From: Curvibacter sp.
GTDB lineage: Bacteria; Pseudomonadota; Gammaproteobacteria; Burkholderiales; Burkholderiaceae_C
Length of the DNA stretch: 32,920 bases
Direction: 5' to 3'
NCBI GenBank assembly: GCA_020248905.1
Contig: JADCGR010000060.1
Span: 1 to 32,920, forward strand
A program made the translations under genes and the position numbers. Position 1 is the first letter of the stretch; each line of letters begins with the position of its first letter. Shown here one piece after another: positions 1-18,441 of the stretch. The notes under the pieces are model-generated. The model saw only the letters and a program-made list of their open reading frames with translations, did no database searches and was not told where the DNA came from.

Positions 1-2
1 AG

Positions 3-173
3 CGCTTGCACATGCGAGAATGGGCGCCAGAACAAGTCAAAACCGAAGCGGAGGCAGCCAATGCGGCGACAGCGTCAATCCAACTTCAATGCAGCTCCTC
101 TTGCCTTCGGCGAGGGGGTTTTTGCACAGTCTCGTTAGGCCTCATGGAGGTGCCCGATGCTCGTTACGTCTGA
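3..173 (+). CDS. Possible 3' end of an upstream cassette gene (partial)
   Basis: One frame is open from the window edge to a TGA at 171-173. Its first 30 or so residues look protein-like, with an acidic, alanine-rich helical stretch (EAEAANAATA). The frame then runs through the candidate attC site at 78-140, where the residues look less like protein. Cassette genes sometimes end inside or beyond their attC, so this could be the tail of the preceding cassette's gene. The start lies outside the window and no family is recognisable. It could equally be non-coding cassette sequence; confidence is low. Confidence 0.25.
   Translation, partial: RLHMREWAPEQVKTEAEAANAATASIQLQCSSSCLRRGGFCTVSLGLMEVPDARYV
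78..140 (+). other. Probable integron attC recombination site
   Basis: An outer core pair fits the attC consensus: ATCCAAC (RYYYAAC) at 78-84 and GTTAGGC (GTTRRRY) at 134-140, 63 bp end to end. Between them are shorter complementary blocks, a TGCA/TGCA pair and an inner CTCCTC/GAGGGG-like arm pair. These would fold the bottom strand into an imperfect hairpin. The next gene starts 16 bp after the GTTAGGC core, as expected for a cassette. The stem is weaker than that of the site at 1104-1169, hence the lower confidence. Confidence 0.6.
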
Positions 174-570
174 CAATAGAGACTGCACGCTTGAAATGTT
201 TCGCACCCCCAATGACCAATATCACTGCACCGTGCGACTGACACTCGGCAGGCATAGTCTAGAAAACGACTATATCTACCTCGACAATGCTGTCGCTTTC
301 ATCTTGTCCCTCAGGGACCTTGGTAAGTCCAGAACAGGAAAGGCAGTGTTGAGTGGATCGGAAGACTTCGAGATTTCGTTTGGGGCGGACGGAGGTTCGG
401 GCGCGATCGCAATCAATGCCGCGCTCACCAGGAATTTCCCAGCATCATCGTCACGCACTGGCCACACTAGAATGGGAAAGGCTTCGCTGCAAGGGACTTT
501 CACAGTGTCCGGTGAATTTGTGCCAGAAATGGTAAGAGAATTTGAAGAGCTATTGGCCGGTGAGGCCTAA
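157..570 (+). CDS. Cassette-encoded hypothetical protein, 137 aa
   Basis: The ATG at 157 follows a good GGAGGT ribosome-binding site at 146-151. The gene is entirely contained between two attC-type core sites. The TAA stop (568-570) lies inside the GCCTAAC core at 565-571, a very typical cassette arrangement. The protein has no signal peptide or membrane segment. It reads as a compact alternating beta-rich domain with a charged C-terminal helix (EMVREFEELL). I do not recognise the family; small immunity-like domains of unknown function have a similar size and look, but this is only a guess. Base composition is visibly more AT-rich than the photosynthesis genes to the right, consistent with acquisition as a mobile cassette. 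Confidence 0.75.
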   Translation: MLVTSDNRDCTLEMFRTPNDQYHCTVRLTLGRHSLENDYIYLDNAVAFILSLRDLGKSRTGKAVLSGSEDFEISFGADGGSGAIAINAALTRNFPASSSRTGHTRMGKASLQGTFTVSGEFVPEMVREFEELLAGEA

Positions 571-584
571 CCCCAACGTTGGGC
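565..584 (+). other. Collapsed attC-like site
   Basis: GCCTAAC (565-571) and GTTGGGC (578-584) match the RYYYAAC and GTTRRRY attC cores but are only 6 bp apart, so the normal central arms are missing. The inner 12 bp CCCAACGTTGGG form a perfect palindrome. The site sits exactly where an attC is expected, on the stop codon of the upstream cassette gene and 41 bp before the next start codon. It is best read as a deletion derivative or fusion of attC ends; chance occurrence is possible. Confidence 0.5.
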
Positions 585-625
585 GTCTTGATCCTGACAT
601 GTTCGCTGACCGAAGGAGATAACAC

Positions 626-1096
626 ATGCTAAGAACGGTACTCGCTGGCCTCGCGGGTGGAATGGCAATGAACATCGCTATGTTGCTCACTTTCCGCCTG
701 CTTGGCTTTGGTTGGAGTGGCGACGGCATCCTGCTCTCTTCTCCCATCCAGAGCCAGAAGCTCATTGCCGTTTGGACTCAGCTTGAGCCTTTACCTCTCG
801 TCGTTGCGAATCCGGCCCCTATCATTATCGGAATGGTGCTCTTCGGTATTGGACACGCCTTCATTTACCGGTCAGTGTCTGCCGCTTGGCCGACGGGTAT
901 CTTCCCAAGGGCAATGCGTTTCGGCGGTCTGCTGTTCTTCATGACCTTTCTGTTTTGGGAATTTTTTACCCCATTCAACCAGTTCGGGGAGCCGTTACCA
1001 CTCGTCGCCCTTGAACTAACCTTCTGGGCAATCATTGCCATCGCGGAGGCGTTTTCCATCGTGGCTATTATCGAACGCAAAGCGAATGGCGTGTGA
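626..1096 (+). CDS. Cassette-encoded small integral membrane protein, 156 aa
   Basis: The ATG at 626 is preceded by a strong AAGGAGAT ribosome-binding site. The protein is hydrophobic throughout, with about four membrane segments: near residues 4-26 (glycine/alanine-rich, AGLAGGMAMNIAML), about 62-82, about 92-112 and about 125-150. Short polar loops separate them and the tail ends in ERKANGV. No catalytic motif is visible. The function is unknown. Small four-helix membrane proteins of this kind are common cargo of integron cassettes. It sits between the collapsed attC at 565-584 and the well-formed attC at 1104-1169, so it is a single-gene cassette. It has no evident link with photosynthesis. 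Confidence 0.8.
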   Translation: MLRTVLAGLAGGMAMNIAMLLTFRLLGFGWSGDGILLSSPIQSQKLIAVWTQLEPLPLVVANPAPIIIGMVLFGIGHAFIYRSVSAAWPTGIFPRAMRFGGLLFFMTFLFWEFFTPFNQFGEPLPLVALELTFWAIIAIAEAFSIVAIIERKANGV

Positions 1097-1103
1097 GCCA
1101 GAC

Positions 1104-1169
1104 GCCCAACCCGGCAGTCGAGCGGACCTGCGCAAAAAGCCGCGCAGGCCGCTCACTTCTACGTTAGGC
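1104..1169 (+). other. Integron attC recombination site (well-formed)
   Basis: The cores GCCCAAC (1104-1110) and GTTAGGC (1163-1169) flank a near-perfect stem. AGCGGACCTGCGC at 1121-1133 pairs with GCGCAGGCCGCT at 1142-1153 around an 8-nt loop. The A at 1126 has no partner. A bulged extrahelical base in the arm is the hallmark that lets IntI recognise the folded bottom strand. The 66-bp length is typical. It begins 7 bp after the upstream stop codon, and the next gene starts 39 bp after its right core. Confidence 0.9.
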
Positions 1170-1208
1170 CGCAACAAAGTCCCCTGTTCACCAACCTTCG
1201 GAGCCCAA

Positions 1209-1595
1209 ATGATTGATCACACTGGGGTCGTTGTCAGCGACTTCTCGAGAAGCAAATCCTTTTATTCCTCAGTGCTCGCCCCCATAGGTTACGCGCTTCT
1301 CGCTGACATCCCAGCATCCATAACTGGGCACACAGACGTAGCTGGGTTCGGCGAGCCGCCGAAGCCCGATTTTTGGATTAGCTACGGCACCCCGAACAGG
1401 CCCCCCATTCACGTGGCTTTTCGTGTACCAAGCCGGGCCATCGTGGATGCCTTCTACAGTGCAGCAATTGCAGCAGGTGGCAGAGACAATGGCCCACCAG
1501 GATTGCGGCCCCATTACCATCCGAACTACTATGGTGCGTTTGTCATCGACCCAGACGGCCACAATATCGAGGCCGTTTGCCACTCACCAGAGTAG
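1209..1595 (+). CDS. VOC-family (glyoxalase/dioxygenase-like) protein, 128 aa
   Basis: The protein belongs to the vicinal-oxygen-chelate superfamily. It starts MIDHTGVVVSD and ends with the typical YGAFVIDPDGHNIEAV strand. Three likely metal ligands are in the usual places: His4, His68 (PPIHVAF) and Glu121 (HNIEAV). The length matches single-domain VOC proteins, which include glyoxalases, dioxygenases and antibiotic-binding proteins; the exact substrate cannot be told. I chose the ATG at 1209 because it begins at the conserved first strand. The open frame extends upstream only through the attC. It is the third cassette gene in the row. No clear attC follows it: only a degenerate GCCTACC is found at 1606-1612, so the array seems to end here in a scarred form. 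Confidence 0.85.
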   Translation: MIDHTGVVVSDFSRSKSFYSSVLAPIGYALLADIPASITGHTDVAGFGEPPKPDFWISYGTPNRPPIHVAFRVPSRAIVDAFYSAAIAAGGRDNGPPGLRPHYHPNYYGAFVIDPDGHNIEAVCHSPE

Positions 1596-1817
1596 ATTAT
1601 TTGCGGCCTACCCCATCGGTCGAGGCGCTGCCAAAGCTCTACCCACCCGGGAATCTAGAGGGAAACCCGGTAAGCGGTACGCGGTAACGAATCGGATCAG
1701 TGCTTGAGGTGCTTCAGCAGAAAGACGCCAGCCACGCTTTGTCATGCACCACGTCTTCGCGCCAAACGCACGCCGTTTGCTACAGCCTGAGCCCCGCGTG
1801 TTCCCGCTTCGTCGCTT
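1596..1817. other. Gene-free junction between cassette array and photosynthesis cluster
   Basis: These 222 bp contain no convincing gene. A degenerate attC-like core GCCTACC lies at 1606-1612, with no matching right core. A perfect inverted repeat CAAACG-N5-CGTTTG lies at 1763-1779, about 40 bp past the crtB stop. It is the only candidate terminator for the leftward superoperon but lacks a T-run. The remainder shows nothing recognisable and may be scar sequence. Confidence 0.5.
1763..1779 (-). terminator. Weak terminator-like hairpin after crtB
   Basis: A perfect 6-bp stem (CAAACG/CGTTTG) with a 5-nt loop lies 38 bp beyond the crtB stop on the minus strand. It has no downstream T-tract, so Rho-independent termination is doubtful. 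Confidence 0.3.
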
Positions 1818-2894
1818 TCAGGCCGACTGCGAATGCATCATCGGCCGGCTTCTTTGTCGGCGTGCGTTTTCCCGCCGCTCCAGCAGGTCGATCACCCAGG
1901 CCACGCGCTGGGGCATGGCGCGGTTGGGGAAGTAGGTGCCTGCCTGCGGCGGCTGCACCTGTGCCTGCCGGCAGCCCTGCACCAGATAGTCAATCGCGGC
2001 CAGAGGCGCAGGTTCCTGCTCGGCCGTACGGACCCAGGGCGCCTGCGTCCAGGCGGCTGCCAGCAAAACCAGCTTGCGCGGGGTGCTGACCACGGTTCGC
2101 TGCGTGACCGAGTCCAAGCCCTCGTGGCGCAACTGCTTGCCGATTTCCCAGTAGATCAGGCTGGCCGAGAGGATGGCCGCGCGGCAATCGGGCGGCAGGG
2201 CGGCAATGCCGGACTGCGACTGTTTATAGAGCCTGTCGGCCTCGTCCAGCAGGCGCGCAACCACGCTCTGCAAGGCGGGTGTGCAATCGGGTTGCTGCAG
2301 CCAGGCCTGCGGGTCGATACCGGCGGCGCGCAGCCAGTCGCGCGGCAGGTAGATGCGGCCCAGCGTAGCATCGGCACCCACATCACGCGCGATGTTGGTC
2401 AGCTGCATGGCCACGCCAAGCTCGCAGGCGCGCGCCAGCGTGTCCACGCTTTGCGGCCCCATGATCCAGCACATCATGGCCCCCACACTGCCGGCCACGC
2501 GCGCGGCGTAGTCGTGCACATCCTGCAGGCTGTCGTAGGTGCGGCCCTGCGCGTCCCAGGCGAAGCCCTCGATGAGTGCGTCGAGCAGGTGCCGCGGCAG
2601 CTGGAATTGCTGCACCACCATGCTCAGCGCATGGTCCTCCACGTAGTCTTGCGGCGTGCCAGCGTAGATCTGGTCCAGTCGCAAACGCAGGGTGTCCAGC
2701 GGGGCCTCGCCCGGGGCCGCCTCGTCCACCAGATCATCGGCCACACGACAGAAGGCGTATAGCGCGATCGAGGCCTTGCGGATGCGCAGCGGCAGCAGGC
2801 GGCTGGCGGCAAAGAAGGTCTTGGAGCCGCCCTGCATCATGGTGACGCAGGCCTGCAGGCTGTCGCTGCTCTGGGAGATTTCAGGCATGGACAT
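1818..2894 (-). CDS. crtB: Phytoene synthase CrtB
   Basis: CrtB condenses two geranylgeranyl diphosphates head to head into 15-cis-phytoene, the first committed carotenoid step. The 358-aa protein shows both aspartate-rich, magnesium/diphosphate-binding motifs of the squalene/phytoene synthase fold: DDLVD at residues 53-57 and DVGAD at 171-175, the latter in the context QLTNIARDVGAD. The N-terminal SKTFFAASRLLP segment is also typical. The start at 2894 overlaps the end of crtI by 14 bp; a second ATG at 2888 is equally possible. It is the last gene of the long leftward superoperon and lies directly beside the integron cassettes. In related betaproteobacteria crtI and crtB are also paired, but usually among other crt genes, none of which follow here. 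Confidence 0.95.
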   Translation of the reverse strand: MSMPEISQSSDSLQACVTMMQGGSKTFFAASRLLPLRIRKASIALYAFCRVADDLVDEAAPGEAPLDTLRLRLDQIYAGTPQDYVEDHALSMVVQQFQLPRHLLDALIEGFAWDAQGRTYDSLQDVHDYAARVAGSVGAMMCWIMGPQSVDTLARACELGVAMQLTNIARDVGADATLGRIYLPRDWLRAAGIDPQAWLQQPDCTPALQSVVARLLDEADRLYKQSQSGIAALPPDCRAAILSASLIYWEIGKQLRHEGLDSVTQRTVVSTPRKLVLLAAAWTQAPWVRTAEQEPAPLAAIDYLVQGCRQAQVQPPQAGTYFPNRAMPQRVAWVIDLLERRENARRQRSRPMMHSQSA

Positions 2895-4440
2895 GGGGAA
2901 TCACCGAATCGAGAGCCTTAGCAGACATGAGCACACCGGGCACGCCCGCACCGGGGTGGGTGCCCGCGCCCACCATGTAGAGGCCCGGCACATCCTCGCT
3001 GCGGTTGTGCGGGCGGAACCAGGCGCTTTGCACCATCACGGGCTCCAGGCCAAAGCCTGCCCCCTTGAAGGACCAGAGCCGGTCATGGAAATCCTGTGGC
3101 GTGGTGACCTTGGAGGTCACGATCGATGCCCGCAGGCCGGGCAGCACGCTGCGCTCGAGCAACTCGGCGATCGCGGCGCGATAGGTTTCGGCGTAGGCTG
3201 GCCAGTCGGTGCCGCTGTCGAGATTGGGCACAGGCACGAGTGCGTAGAACGTATCGCAACCTGCCGGCGCCAGCGAGGGATCGGTGGCCGTGGGCCGGTG
3301 CAGGTAGAGGCTGAAGTCTTCGGCCAGCTTGTGGCGCTTGAAGATATCGGTCAGCAGGGCCTCGTAGCGCGGGCCCAGCACCATCATGTGATGCGGCACA
3401 TCCGGGTACTGGCGTGAGGTGCCGAAGTACCAGACGAAGAGGCCCATGGAATACTTGCCGCGAGCGATGCGCGCATCGGTCCAGTGGCGGCGATGTTCGC
3501 GGGCCACCAGGTTCTTGTAGGTCCAGGCCGTGTCGGCATTGCTGACCACGATGTCCGCCGCGATGAACTCGCCGCCCTCCAGCTCGACGCCACAGGCGTG
3601 GCCCTTCTCGATGCAGATCTTCGTGACGGGCGCATTGCAGCGCAGCTGGATGCCGCGCGCCTGGAGCAGACCCACCAGGCCACGCACGATGGCGCCGGTG
3701 CCACCCATGGCCGAATGCACACCCCAGGTGCGCTCGAGGGAGTTGATGAGGGCGTAGGCGGACGTTACCGAGAACGGATTACCACCGATCAGCAGCGGGT
3801 GAAAGCTCATCACCACGCGCAGCTTCTCGTTCTTCATGTACTTGGCCACCAGGCTGTGGATGCTGCGCCAGGCTTTCATCTTCACGAAGAAGGGGATGGC
3901 CTTGAGCAGGTCGGTGGGCTTGTCAAAGGCCTTGGAGCCCAGGGCGTGGAAGCCCAGATCTCGGCAGAGATCGGCATCTTTCACGAACTTGCGGTAGCCC
4001 GCCACATCGGCCGGCGAGAAACGCGCCACCTCGGCTTCCATCCGCGCATCGTCACCGCTGTAATCGAACCAGCTGCCGTCGTGAAAGCGGATGCGGTAGA
4101 ACGGGTCCATGGGCACCAGGGTGACGTCATCAGCAAAGCGGCGGCCGCACAGCGCCCACAGCTCCTCCAGCAAAAAGGGGGCGGTGATGATGGTTGGGCC
4201 GGCGTCGAAGGTGAAGCCGTCCTGATGGTGCACATACGCACGGCCACCGGGTGCGTCGAGTTTCTCCAGGACCTTGACCTGATAGCCCTTGACGCTCAGT
4301 CGGATAGCTGCCGCGAGACCGCCAAAGCCGCTGCCAATGACGACCGCGACGGGGCGCGACGGCGCCGGCGCGGCGCGGCCACCGCTACTACCCCCCAGCA
4401 TGCCGGGGCTGCCGAAGCCGTCAGAATTGAATGCGTTCAT
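2881..4440 (-). CDS. crtI: Phytoene desaturase CrtI
   Basis: CrtI introduces successive double bonds into phytoene to give neurosporene or lycopene, using FAD at the membrane surface. The 519-aa protein has the dinucleotide-binding motif GSGFGG at residues 36-41, followed by LEKLDAPGGRA. It also carries the C-terminal CrtI signature (YMVGAGTHPGAGVPGVLMSA). The length is normal for the bacterial CrtI family. It has a glycine/serine-rich N-terminal extension of about 30 residues before the FAD strand. Its start overlaps the puhE stop by 20 bp and its end overlaps crtB, implying translational coupling. Whether it performs three or four desaturations, and so which carotenoid is made, cannot be read from the sequence by eye. 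Confidence 0.96.
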   Translation of the reverse strand: MNAFNSDGFGSPGMLGGSSGGRAAPAPSRPVAVVIGSGFGGLAAAIRLSVKGYQVKVLEKLDAPGGRAYVHHQDGFTFDAGPTIITAPFLLEELWALCGRRFADDVTLVPMDPFYRIRFHDGSWFDYSGDDARMEAEVARFSPADVAGYRKFVKDADLCRDLGFHALGSKAFDKPTDLLKAIPFFVKMKAWRSIHSLVAKYMKNEKLRVVMSFHPLLIGGNPFSVTSAYALINSLERTWGVHSAMGGTGAIVRGLVGLLQARGIQLRCNAPVTKICIEKGHACGVELEGGEFIAADIVVSNADTAWTYKNLVAREHRRHWTDARIARGKYSMGLFVWYFGTSRQYPDVPHHMMVLGPRYEALLTDIFKRHKLAEDFSLYLHRPTATDPSLAPAGCDTFYALVPVPNLDSGTDWPAYAETYRAAIAELLERSVLPGLRASIVTSKVTTPQDFHDRLWSFKGAGFGLEPVMVQSAWFRPHNRSEDVPGLYMVGAGTHPGAGVPGVLMSAKALDSVIPHVHA

Positions 4441-6312: not shown

Positions 6313-6797
6313 GGTGTGCTCCTGGGCATCAACGGGTAGAGGTGGGTTCCAGCCTGGCGCAGGCCGGCAAACACGGCCGCATTGCTCGGGCCGAAGGCCT
6401 CGAGATCGATGCGCTGGCCGGTGGCGGGATCGAGCAGGGTCAGGCGGCCATCGCTGCGGCCGATCAGTTGCACGGGCGCCTGCGCGCCTATGCCTTCGCG
6501 CTTGCGCTCACGCACCAGGGCCCGCAGAGTGCTGCGCAGAAAACCTTGCTCACCCTGGAAGCTGGCGACGGTGGCGCCGGTGTGCGCGTCCAGCACCAGT
6601 ACCTCGCCGGCGGGACCGTCGCGGAAATTGAGCTCGCGCTGCCACAGCGTTGCGGCATCCGGCTGGCGCGTGCTGACGCCCTGCCACCGCGCCCAGGCCA
6701 CCAGCAACAGCACCATGAGCAGTAGGCTGCCCAGTAGCCGGACGGCGGCTGGCAGGGTCTGCACCGGTGCGGCGCGGGGGGCGGTGCGGGTGTTCAT
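6309..6797 (-). CDS. puhC: Photosynthetic complex assembly protein PuhC
   Basis: PuhC supports formation and organisation of the reaction-centre/LH1 core complex. The 162-aa protein has one N-terminal membrane anchor (about residues 20-38, [15 protein letters not shown]) and then a periplasmic domain. The latter contains the family pattern [21 protein letters not shown] and [19 protein letters not shown]. Its start overlaps the puhB stop by 4 bp (ATGA) and its stop overlaps the acsF start by 4 bp. The order puhA-puhB-puhC is the conserved one, which supports the name as much as the sequence does. Confidence 0.93.
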
Positions 6798-7468
6798 GCC
6801 GGCACGCCCTTGGCGTTGGTGGGCATGCGCGCGTCTTGCGCGTCACCCGTCACGATGGTCTCGCCCTGGTGGCTTTCACGCCAAACCTTGAGTAGCAGCT
6901 CCCCCACGGCCTGGCCATCCGGCAGGCAGCGCAGCGTGGGCTGCGGATGCCTGACGTGCCAGGCGCGCTGGTGTGGCCAAAGATGGAACCAGCCGATGTG
7001 GTCGTCGGGATAAAGCTGCAGGGCAATGTCGCTGCTGTTTTTGCCGTACTGGCGGCAGGAGGCGCCCGCGATCCGGCGCAGCGGAAGGTTGAAGGTCACC
7101 GTCAGCACGATGCCGATGCGCATGATGACGCGCTTGTTCGTCACGCTGTAAAGCGTGGTGCGGGCAGCAAACCACGCACAAAGTGTGAGCAGGCCCATCG
7201 CCAGCGCCGCGAGCGAAGCGCTCACCACCATGGGGCGCCAGACCTCCTCGCCCGTGAGCCCGCCGCCCATGAGTTGCGCCAGCTGCAGCAGCAGCATGAG
7301 CGCAAAGTAGGCTGCAATCTTGCGCAGGTGAAAGGCTTGCAGGGCCAGCTGGCGCCAATCCGGTGAGCCCTGCCACAGCAACTTCTCGCCAGCAGGCAAG
7401 GCTGCAGGCAGGCCGGGTGCGGCCTCCCATTCGTGCTCGTGGGTGGGCAAGACGGTCACGGCTTTCAC
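6794..7468 (-). CDS. puhB: Photosynthetic complex assembly protein PuhB
   Basis: PuhB is a membrane protein that acts as a reaction-centre assembly factor. The 224-aa protein begins with a soluble segment containing LPAGEKLLWQGSPDW, the start of a bacterial PH-like domain. Two hydrophobic helices follow (about residues 51-67 and 82-103), then TTLYSVTNKRVIMRIG, the conserved core of this domain family. Translation must start at a GTG at 7468, which overlaps the puhA stop as GTGA. No closer ATG is available, so coupling to puhA translation probably compensates for the weak codon. The C-terminus overlaps puhC. Confidence 0.92.
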   Translation of the reverse strand: MKAVTVLPTHEHEWEAAPGLPAALPAGEKLLWQGSPDWRQLALQAFHLRKIAAYFALMLLLQLAQLMGGGLTGEEVWRPMVVSASLAALAMGLLTLCAWFAARTTLYSVTNKRVIMRIGIVLTVTFNLPLRRIAGASCRQYGKNSSDIALQLYPDDHIGWFHLWPHQRAWHVRHPQPTLRCLPDGQAVGELLLKVWRESHQGETIVTGDAQDARMPTNAKGVPA

Positions 7469-8229
7469 AGCAGCGGCTCCTGGCGGTCGGGCGTGGCGTA
7501 AAGGGTGCCCGCGCCGTAGTAGGCAGTGATCTTTTCTTCTTCAAGCAGCGTGACCTGCTCGGGCGACTTCGTCCTGGGCACATCGGCAAACTGCGCACCC
7601 AGCAGGGCCTGGACATGGACGCCGTCGCGCTTGATACGCGCGAAGGTCATGGGCACCAGCACCCGACGGCCCGAGCCGGCCAGTTCAAGCTCGGCGTAGC
7701 GGAACAGCATTTCCATGCGGTCGATCCACAGGTCCACCACCTTGCCGGCCACTTCGCCATCGGCGCCAACCACAGGCAGACCCCGCGGATCCACGTCCTT
7801 GGCCGCCACACCATGCTCTGGCGAGGCACGCAGCGGCACGATCTTGGCGTGGCCATGCAGATCGGCGTCGGGCACATCGGCGCGCGCCGCCCAGGCGCCG
7901 GGACCGACCCCGGCCAGCAGCGGATTGCCCACCGGCTCAAGCGGCGCCCCATTCCAGCCGTGGGCTGGCGTGCCCCGGTAATCACCGTCGCGACGGTCGG
8001 GATCAGGAGAAAGGTGCACGTGGCCGTCCAAGGTCTTGAAGGTGGCCGGCGTCGGCACGGGCGGCCAGCCCTCCACTTTGGGGCCGTCTGGTCGGCCCGG
8101 ATCCATGGGGTAGCCCTCGCGGTGGTTCTCGCGCAAGAGGTAGTAGATCAGGCCCGCGAAGAACGCCCAGAATAAGTACAAGACGATTTGTGCCACGTCC
8201 ACATACTGGGTGATAGCTCCTGTTTCCAT
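7465..8229 (-). CDS. puhA: Photosynthetic reaction centre H subunit PuhA
   Basis: The H subunit caps the cytoplasmic face of the reaction centre and guides proton delivery to the secondary quinone. The 254-aa protein has one membrane helix near the N-terminus (residues about 13-31, VLYLFWAFFAGLIYYLL). A REGYPMD-type motif follows, then a beta-rich cytoplasmic domain with GKVVDLWIDRMEML, all typical of PuhA. An AAGGAG ribosome-binding site lies 6-7 bases before the ATG. There is a 31-bp gap after lhaA, one of the wider junctions in the operon. The partner L and M subunits (pufL, pufM) are not in this window. Confidence 0.97.
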   Translation of the reverse strand: METGAITQYVDVAQIVLYLFWAFFAGLIYYLLRENHREGYPMDPGRPDGPKVEGWPPVPTPATFKTLDGHVHLSPDPDRRDGDYRGTPAHGWNGAPLEPVGNPLLAGVGPGAWAARADVPDADLHGHAKIVPLRASPEHGVAAKDVDPRGLPVVGADGEVAGKVVDLWIDRMEMLFRYAELELAGSGRRVLVPMTFARIKRDGVHVQALLGAQFADVPRTKSPEQVTLLEEEKITAYYGAGTLYATPDRQEPLL

Positions 8230-10401: not shown

Positions 10402-15053
<4,652 letters not shown>

Positions 15054-15078
15054 GCGCGGTGCGGCGGAGCGGTCCTGC

Positions 15079-16632
15079 TTAGCGGCTGAAGTGGGCCTTG
15101 GCATCGTAGAGGGTCTCCACAGTGATGGTTGGCACGCCCTGATCCAGCGCGTAGCGCTCGGTGTTGCGGCGGGCCTTGCCGCGCACGAAGAAGGGAATCT
15201 TGCCGAGCTCCTTCTCGGCCTCCGGGCTCCAGACCGCCGCTGTCGGCACGGTGATGGGTGTGGCGGCTGCGGGCATGGCCGGCGTCTCGGCGGGCGCGGC
15301 GGCTGCCGGCCGCGTGCTGCCCAGGTGCGAGGGCGCTGCCCCGGCATGGAATTCGAAGTCCTGCCGGAACATGCCGAGCAGATGCTCCTCCAGCCCCATC
15401 ATCAGCGGATGGACCCAGGTGTCGAAGAGCACGTTCGCTCCCTCGTAGCCCATCTGCGGCGCATAGCGGGCCGGGTAGTCCTGCACATGAACCGGCGCCG
15501 AGATCACGGCGCAGGGGATGCCGTGCCGCTTGGCGATGTGGCGCTCCATCTGCGTGCCCAGAATAAGCTCAGGCTGCAGGGCGGTGATCTGGTTTTCGAC
15601 TTCAAGGTAGTCGTCGGTGATCAAGGCTTCGACGCCATGACGCTTGGCACAGTCGCGCACCTCTCGAGCGAACTCGCGGCTGTAGGTGCCTAGGCCCACG
15701 ACCTCGAAGCCCATCTCTTCGCTCGCGATACGCGCGGCTGCCACCACATGAGTCGCGTCACCGAAGAGGAAAACGCGCTTGCCGGTGAGATAGGTCGAGT
15801 CGACTGATCGCGCATACCAGCGCGCCCGTGCGGTGGCCTCATCTTCCGCCGGGGCGCTCAGGCCGGTAAGCGCGCAGACTTCGGCGAGGAAGTCTCGAGT
15901 GGCATTGAGCCCCAGCGGGACGGTCCTGGTGTAGGGCTGGCCGAACTGGCGTTGCAGCCATTGCGCCGCAGCGAGGCCGATTTCGGGGTAGAGCACCACG
16001 TTGAAGTCGGCCTCAGCCAGCCGGCGGATGTCGGACGCGCTGGCGTCCAGCGGTGCGACCACCGACACATCGACGCCGATCTGCGCGAGCAGCCGGGTGA
16101 CCTCCCGCACATCGTCACGGTGACGGAATCCCAGGGCGGTGGGGCCGAGCAGATTGCAACGCGGCCGCGGCTGCGGCGTCTTCTGCGCGGGCCTGGCCAC
16201 GAGGTGGCGACACAGCTGGTAGAAGGTTTCGCTCGCGCCCCAGTTTTCCTTGCGCTGGTACGAGGGCAGCTCCAGGGCCACGACCGGGATCGGCAGGCAC
16301 AGGGCCTGCGCCAGCCCGCCGGGATCGTCCTGGATGAGCTCGGCCGTACACGAAGAGCCGACCAGCAGCGCGGCTGGCTGGTGGCGCTGCACGGCCTCTC
16401 GGGCCGCGTTCTTGAAAAGCTCGGCGGTATCGCCACCGAGGTCGCGCGCCTGGAACGTGGTGTAGGTCACGGGCGGACGCTGCGCGCGGCGTTCGATCAT
16501 GGTGAACAGCAGATCGGCGTAGGTGTCGCCCTGCGGTGCATGCAGCACGTAGTGCAGGTCGCGCATGGCGGTGGCGATGCGCATGGCGCCCACATGCGGG
16601 GGGCCTTCGTAAGTCCAGAGGGTGAGCTGCAT
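15079..16632 (-). CDS. bchB: Dark protochlorophyllide reductase subunit BchB
   Basis: BchB and BchN form the catalytic NB component that reduces ring D of protochlorophyllide. The 517-aa protein starts [15 protein letters not shown], the conserved N-terminus. It has Asp36 (QGDTYAD), the aspartate that takes the place of a cysteine ligand on the shared NB cluster. The C-terminal domain holds an alanine/proline-rich linker and the protochlorophyllide-binding region ([13 protein letters not shown]). An upstream in-frame extension inside bchN is rejected because GAGGA lies 7 bases before the ATG at 16632. It follows bchN after 19 bp. Confidence 0.97.
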
Positions 16633-16651
16633 GGTCGCGTCCTCAGTCGGC

Positions 16652-18441
<1,790 letters not shown>

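Follow-up and report, generated by a model that had tools for sequence, protein, structure and literature searches.

A Curvibacter cassette array most likely inside a photosynthesis gene cluster, and an IS1182-family clade found at attC sites

Introduction

The closest described systems are insertion sequences (ISs) that target attC sites and cassettes that lie outside integrons. Elements of the IS1111-attC group reportedly insert at one end of attC, as Tetu and Holmes in 2008 and Post and Hall in 2009 are said to have described, and Loot et al. in 2024 are said to have dealt with attG insertions and CALINs, that is, cassettes outside integrons. A Xanthomonas integron paper, in the part available, cites both IS1111 papers for attC targeting, describes CALINs and attG insertions of cassettes, and gives a CALIN as two or more attC sites with no integrase close by, which is the default of IntegronFinder (PMC12444791). 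IS1111 elements are described, in the accessible portion of another paper, as having subterminal repeats and a DEDD transposase and as choosing their targets under RNA guidance (PMC11187229). In the IS1182 family, IS1272 is reported to recognize inverted-repeat or stem-loop targets and some members are said to target palindromes; as far as the available text of that paper goes, IS1272 replaces its stem-loop target without a duplication and without a common target sequence (PMC5678879).

The attC-targeting ISs that we found in print are IS1111-type. A literature search, with ISfinder and most subscription papers lying outside it, found no report of IS1182-type elements targeting attC; in the accessible parts of papers naming both attC and IS1182, the latter appears only in a table of elements, and nothing on the topic was seen by title for IS1182 combined with integrons or target sites. 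The same search found no paper that joins attC with a photosynthesis gene cluster, and by title none on integrons together with such a cluster.

Here we describe a locus at the start of a stretch of 32,920 nucleotides from Curvibacter sp. (GenBank assembly GCA_020248905.1, contig JADCGR010000060.1), hereafter the window, which is contig C57 of the 65 contigs in the assembly. As in CALINs and attG insertions, cassettes here are away from the integrase and scattered over the chromosome; the difference is that the array most likely lies within a photosynthesis gene cluster and that the window retains a single complete attC. The IS beside them belongs to a clade that, like the IS1111-attC group, appears to target one end of attC, but its transposases are DDE enzymes of the IS1182 family, its ends are terminal repeats, and its insertions usually duplicate 3 bp, GTT. 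IS1272 has a transposase of the same family, whereas insertions of the clade lie at the 3′ foot of attC, with the stem kept on one side and GTT usually duplicated. Because IS1272 is reported to recognize stem-loops, hairpin recognition is plausible for the clade. We regard the IS1182 clade found at attC as the lasting result.

Cassette genes and attC sites in the window

The features at the start of the window are listed below; the attC covariance model was trained on 12 attC sites from other genomes.

1–133, plus strand: right end of an IS1182-family element, with the terminal repeat GGGGGTTTTTGCACAGTCTC at 114–133; the contig starts within the IS
134–140, plus strand: R′ half of an attC, GTTAGGC; the attC is split by the IS
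157–570, plus strand: cassette gene 1, 137 aa; weak WapI-like (immunity protein) match, below cut-off
565–584, plus strand: attC remnant of 20 bp without the stem, R″ GCCTAAC nearly touching R′ GTTGGGC
626–1096, plus strand: cassette gene 2, 156 aa, hydrophobic, by eye membrane-like
1104–1169, plus strand: complete attC; 55.1 bits, E 7.1e-9, the top model match of the genome among the 150 of 4018 candidates scored
1209–1595, plus strand: cassette gene 3, 128 aa, glyoxalase/VOC superfamily, PF00903 E 1.6e-9; the ORF list gives a TTG start at 1035, and the ATG at 1209 was adopted
1818–2894, minus strand: crtB (phytoene synthase), PF00494 E 3.8e-68; native flank of the insertion

The initial annotation had noticed three small same-strand genes of non-photosynthetic type, about 220 bp from crtB, and both points hold. 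The three plus-strand ORFs lie in a segment (134–1600) of 54.5% GC, against 67.0% over 2895–32920, where the minimum among 143 windows of equal length is 62.1%; this low GC makes the small genes look foreign. The distance from the end of cassette gene 3 (1595) to the crtB stop (1818) was measured as 222 bp. Cassette genes 1 and 2 each had zero matches at E≤1e-5 among the sequences of a plasmid collection, and for gene 2 Pfam gave no match up to E 1 and NCBIfam one chance-level match.

Three attC-type sites had also been proposed, one of them as a textbook site with an extrahelical A at 1126. That site, at 1104–1169, is borne out by the covariance model and by its fold: the bottom strand reaches −21.0 kcal/mol (z −4.07, equalled by none of 200 shuffles), C1119 is extrahelical in addition to A1126, and its simple stem score of 14.0 is reached by shuffled DNA at 1.7 per Mb. 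The other two had no model match at E≤1. The site at 78–140 is the right end of the IS plus an R′ half and folds with z +0.97, 172 of 200 shuffles folding equally well; the one at 565–584 is a collapsed remnant that folds no better than shuffles. The window therefore holds one complete attC, one collapsed remnant and one R′ half, and 3′ of cassette gene 3 there was neither an exact R″/R′ motif nor a model match. Because at least one attC is real, these three genes are integron cassettes; three co-oriented ORFs accompany the complete site, as attC-flanked genes of the same orientation.

The integron integrase

The proposed integron origin stands as regards the attC, a full intI on contig C59 and the additional attC sites that C9 and C34 carry; an intI in the window itself, beside the cassettes, is absent. 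The search beyond the window located an intact intI at C59:37218-38162 (TIGR02249 452 bits; NF011946 476.5 bits), the only one above cut-off in the genome. Its match ends 215 bp (the open frame, 146 bp) from the right end of C59 and reads away from that end. Among the 26 genomes of the genus, this one included, intI above cut-off occurs in two, the other being G007, where a different gene follows intI. On C59 an error-prone DNA polymerase gene (PRK05672, 1479 bits) lies a few bases 3′ of intI on the same strand (13993–18232 of locus L011, which is C59:20000-38377), so that one transcript may carry two SOS-type functions. A LexA-like box with one mismatch overlaps the intI start, and such boxes are not above chance frequency in the locus. 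Fragments of intI with in-frame stops, at G008:C36:36829-37098 and G003:C1:3181633-3181749, may indicate that the genus once had an older integron, since lost.

Position of the array relative to crtC and crtB

An integron edge forming the left boundary of the photosynthesis cluster had been suggested. The crtB flank in relatives speaks against this. Seven other genomes of the genus have crtB at E≤1e-60, and in four of them crtC is convergent to the neighboring crtB. The gap measures 864 bp in G021 and 56 bp in G018, and does not exceed about 54 bp in G010 or about 104–105 bp in G025. For the other three genomes, crtC is outside the retrieved stretch (G005, where the contig ends just past crtB, G006 and G009). 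The crtB genes of G021 and G018 are 81–83% identical to that of the window, and homology on the crtB side ends at window position 1818 (G021) or 1855 (G018). Both relatives have crtC and reaction-centre genes in the stretch before crtB. The block in G021 was confirmed by PF00124, found twice, PF02276 and a crtD match above cut-off (NF045637, 686.8 bits); its crtC scores 228.9 bits with NF045922, below the cut-off of 400.

In the Curvibacter genome under study, the crtC/reaction-centre block is at C25:67452-79803, on a contig 80675 long, and homology ends 872 bp before its right end. This crtC likewise falls below the NF045922 cut-off of 400 (E 7e-72, 242 bits); a PDB sequence search with it was empty, and Pfam gave a weak lipocalin match only. 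The gene lies 763 bp from a left end of the IS found in the window; the left repeat GAGACTGTGCAAAAACCCCC, the reverse complement of GGGGGTTTTTGCACAGTCTC, begins at C25:80564, 112 bp before the right end of C25. The 20-bp terminal repeat at C25:80564 thus recurs, inverted, at window 114–133, and we infer that the two mark the ends of one IS. In the flank of the IS on C25 the attC shows its R′ side only, R″ being absent (attC score 0), so the small gene between crtC and the IS (L074:14057-14428, with a weak BamE match below cut-off) is a cassette by position only.

Because relatives join crtC to crtB and crtC on C25 lies near the same IS, the array is most likely inside the cluster, interrupting it between crtC and crtB rather than standing at its edge. 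The join from C25 through the IS to C57 would span a contig gap. In the simplest reading, about 4 kb in all, made up of cassette DNA and the IS, lies between crtC and crtB, with an IS size of 1.6–1.8 kb taken from relatives. Formally, C25 could be joined to C9 instead, because C9 opens with the identical 141 bases; compared with relatives, C9 gives a good match only from about C9:9890, a gene read as htpG, and is not placed by its flank. The neighborhood would then be stranger than the initial annotation claimed, lying inside the cluster.

The spacers between crtC and crtB in G000, G021 and G018 have no significant mutual similarity, so the ancestral insertion site is not mappable. By eye the C25 spacer resembled that of G021, which was not significant on testing. 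G021 has a lone gene between crtC and crtB (L062 12729-13199) with a T6SS Tdi1-C immunity domain (PF08906). It was not counted as a cassette: a homologue on C17 stands amid ordinary-looking genes, and the locus has no attC model match. Two species seem to have acquired different DNA between crtC and crtB.

An IS1182-family clade at attC cores

Three right ends of the IS were found in the genome, on C57, C9 and C6, and all adjoin GTTAGGCC. Window positions 1–141 are identical to C9:1-141, after which the sequences diverge, and C6 carries the end of a degenerate copy that is 87% identical to the window's IS end. GTT stands beside the IS on both C25 and C57: on C25 the flank runs ...CGAACGTT (...AACGTT) up to the IS, and on C57 the IS is followed directly by GTTAGGCC. 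The interior of the window's own copy is outside the contigs seen. After GAGACTGTGCAAAAACCCCC on C25, a reading frame opens with MARYKLVDR and resembles the clade transposases. The C6 transposase fragment, 213 aa, scores 65.1 bits with NF033551 over residues 6–178; with the same model (cut-off 270), the transposase of locus L101 is above at 292.4 bits and that of L084 below at 257.2. The DDE domain PF01609 is present in the C6 fragment, and PF13751 and PF01609 in L084, in place of the DEDD (IS110-type) transposase of the IS1111-attC group.

Loci of the clade came from three sources. GTDB genome contigs scanned with the C6 fragment yielded 8 loci; the L084 transposase, compared with 399 order-level genomes at E≤1e-70, gave at least 18 matches in 15 genomes, up to three candidates being scored per genome; and two Pseudoalteromonas plasmid records were the best 2 of 71 with a match, of which 12 were retrieved. 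L085 (a repeat of L100), L086 (a repeat of L107) and L087 (34% identity, an outgroup) were left out, giving 25 distinct loci, no two of which have near-identical flanks. In the tree (26 rows), 16 clade loci and this genome's fragment are split from nine other IS1182 transposases by a branch with 100/100 support, and the fragment groups with L101 (88/68); the clade loci outside the tree are L080, L081, L082, L089, L103, L104, L105, L106 and L109.

All 25 distinct loci have at least one IS end at a GTT/AAC core. The 3-bp GTT duplication is present in 17 of the 20 two-ended insertions (the exceptions are L088, L100 and L107) and the stem stays on one side at most junctions, in place of the stem-loop replacement of IS1272. 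The attC score has a median of 10.0 over the 21 scorable junctions and of 6.25 over 166 CGTTRRR sites used as controls (Mann-Whitney p 4.7e-9), and 71% of junctions reach at least 9, compared with 7% of the control sites. Six junctions fall below 9, namely L094 (0), L098 (6), L092 (7), L104 (8), L081 (8.75) and L107 (8.75). The nine outgroup IS1182 elements have no GTT/AAC attC core at their junctions, with L087 lacking its right flank and the ends of L114 being unsure. Two further outgroups, L090 (short transposase; attC core absent at first look) and L121 (transposase unannotated), were left out of the junction check and the tree.

The attC box hit is R′ alike in insertions where the transposase reads with the site ('co') and against it ('anti'), the attC strand, and with it R′ or R″, being set by resemblance to the attC consensus and not by cassette genes. 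The 'anti' insertions were at one point read as R″ insertions, which was dropped: the site, reversed, shows R′. Because the 'anti' label needs just two changes on the tree, orientation is for the most part a matter of descent. The window's IS is a member of this clade, whose copies are found at R′ of attC. For the wider proposal, that an undescribed IS1182-family DDE clade of betaproteobacteria and Pseudoalteromonas recognizes attC, perhaps folded, lands in the GTT core used by IntI with an orientation that goes with subclade, and locks cassettes, including an array inside a photosynthesis cluster, we see slightly less than an even chance.

Alternative explanations

The window could instead be the distal end of the genome's own integron, running from intI on C59 through attI and cassettes across a gap to C57, and so forming the edge of the photosynthesis cluster. 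The place and direction of intI suit this, since attI and the array would leave the right end of C59 oriented like the window cassettes; however, the terminal 229 bases of C59 had no match at E≤0.001 on any other contig, crtC lies near the end of C25 beside a left end of the same IS, and in relatives it directly adjoins crtB, so that we judge this reading improbable. Still less credit goes to an assembly artefact, whether a false join of cassettes to crtB or a mixture of contigs from several strains. The assembly is fragmented, and the common first 141 bases of C57 and C9 fit a de Bruijn fork at k=141 (the assembler being inferred), but the fork sits at the IS/attC boundary, completeness is 99.87 and contamination 0.08. 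Furthermore, 145–1700 is unmatched elsewhere in the genome, save that 1106–1169 resembles two attC-like stretches, so there is no long repeat to cause a false join to crtB.

A third alternative leaves the position of the array untouched and concerns the target: the clade might favor a short core such as CGTTRGG, attC being struck for carrying it. A core is common to nearly all targets, and L094 has the GTT duplication with no visible hairpin. Against this, the hairpin scores at junctions far exceed those of the 166 control sites, L099 pairs a divergent core, GTGTTCGG, with the strongest hairpin of all (score 16), and wherever the site could be oriented it was R′, not R″, that was struck. We hold a preference for the core as such to be rather unlikely, though less so than the two readings above.

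Proposed history and significance

The explanation that we favor, and consider probable as a whole, combines cassettes in the crtC–crtB gap with insertion of an attC-seeking IS1182-family element. The IS end, the attC, the location of the clade at attC cores and the gene order in relatives are directly observed. A few integron cassettes would have entered the short convergent gap, on another contig than intI, probably by IntI-mediated recombination between attC and a genomic site of the attG type. An IS1182-family element would then have transposed into the R′ box of one cassette attC, between GTT and RRRY, duplicating GTT; since clade copies lie in attC sites, the IS would home to cassette arrays. 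The split R′ would leave that attC unusable for IntI.

If this is true, a DDE-transposase clade has arrived at integron finding independently of IS1111 guide RNAs, and it makes testable whether attC is recognized by sequence or by hairpin. Insertions of this kind would hold cassettes in place and leave arrays fragmented in assemblies, a point of relevance to integron annotation. Finding cassettes within a conserved photosynthesis cluster would show that clusters of this sort can admit foreign cassettes at a convergent, low-cost gap.

Further attC sites and insertion sequences in the genome

With 150 of 4018 first-look candidates scored, the genome-wide attC model search found at least four sites: C57:1104-1169, C34:149375-149440 and two on C9. 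On 20 stretches the model gave ten matches, which are these four, three from the integron of the relative G007 (the positive control), another C9 site and a pair of weak C11 sites (E 0.11 and 0.26). The C34 site (L060 8376-8441) stands alone mid-contig at 41.5 bits, flanked by ORFs of 529 and 219 aa, and is 89% like the window attC over 64 bases. C9 (L017, C9:1-12000) has a second cassette array at 1–3300, which opens with an IS right end identical to the window's, contains three attC model matches, and carries one gene that resembles molybdopterin oxidoreductases (PF00174) and another with a weak likeness to hydrolases. On C6 (L059), 6700–8110 holds the degenerate IS1182 copy, then a DUF2306 gene and, by eye, an inverted partial copy of the IS end. 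Ends on C11 (L061 1-1475) and C9 (L017 1840-2040), beside attC-like sites, resemble those of an IS110/IS1111-type element (start MHATTVAVDLAKSVFQL), and two unrelated IS types may thus have attacked arrays within one genome.
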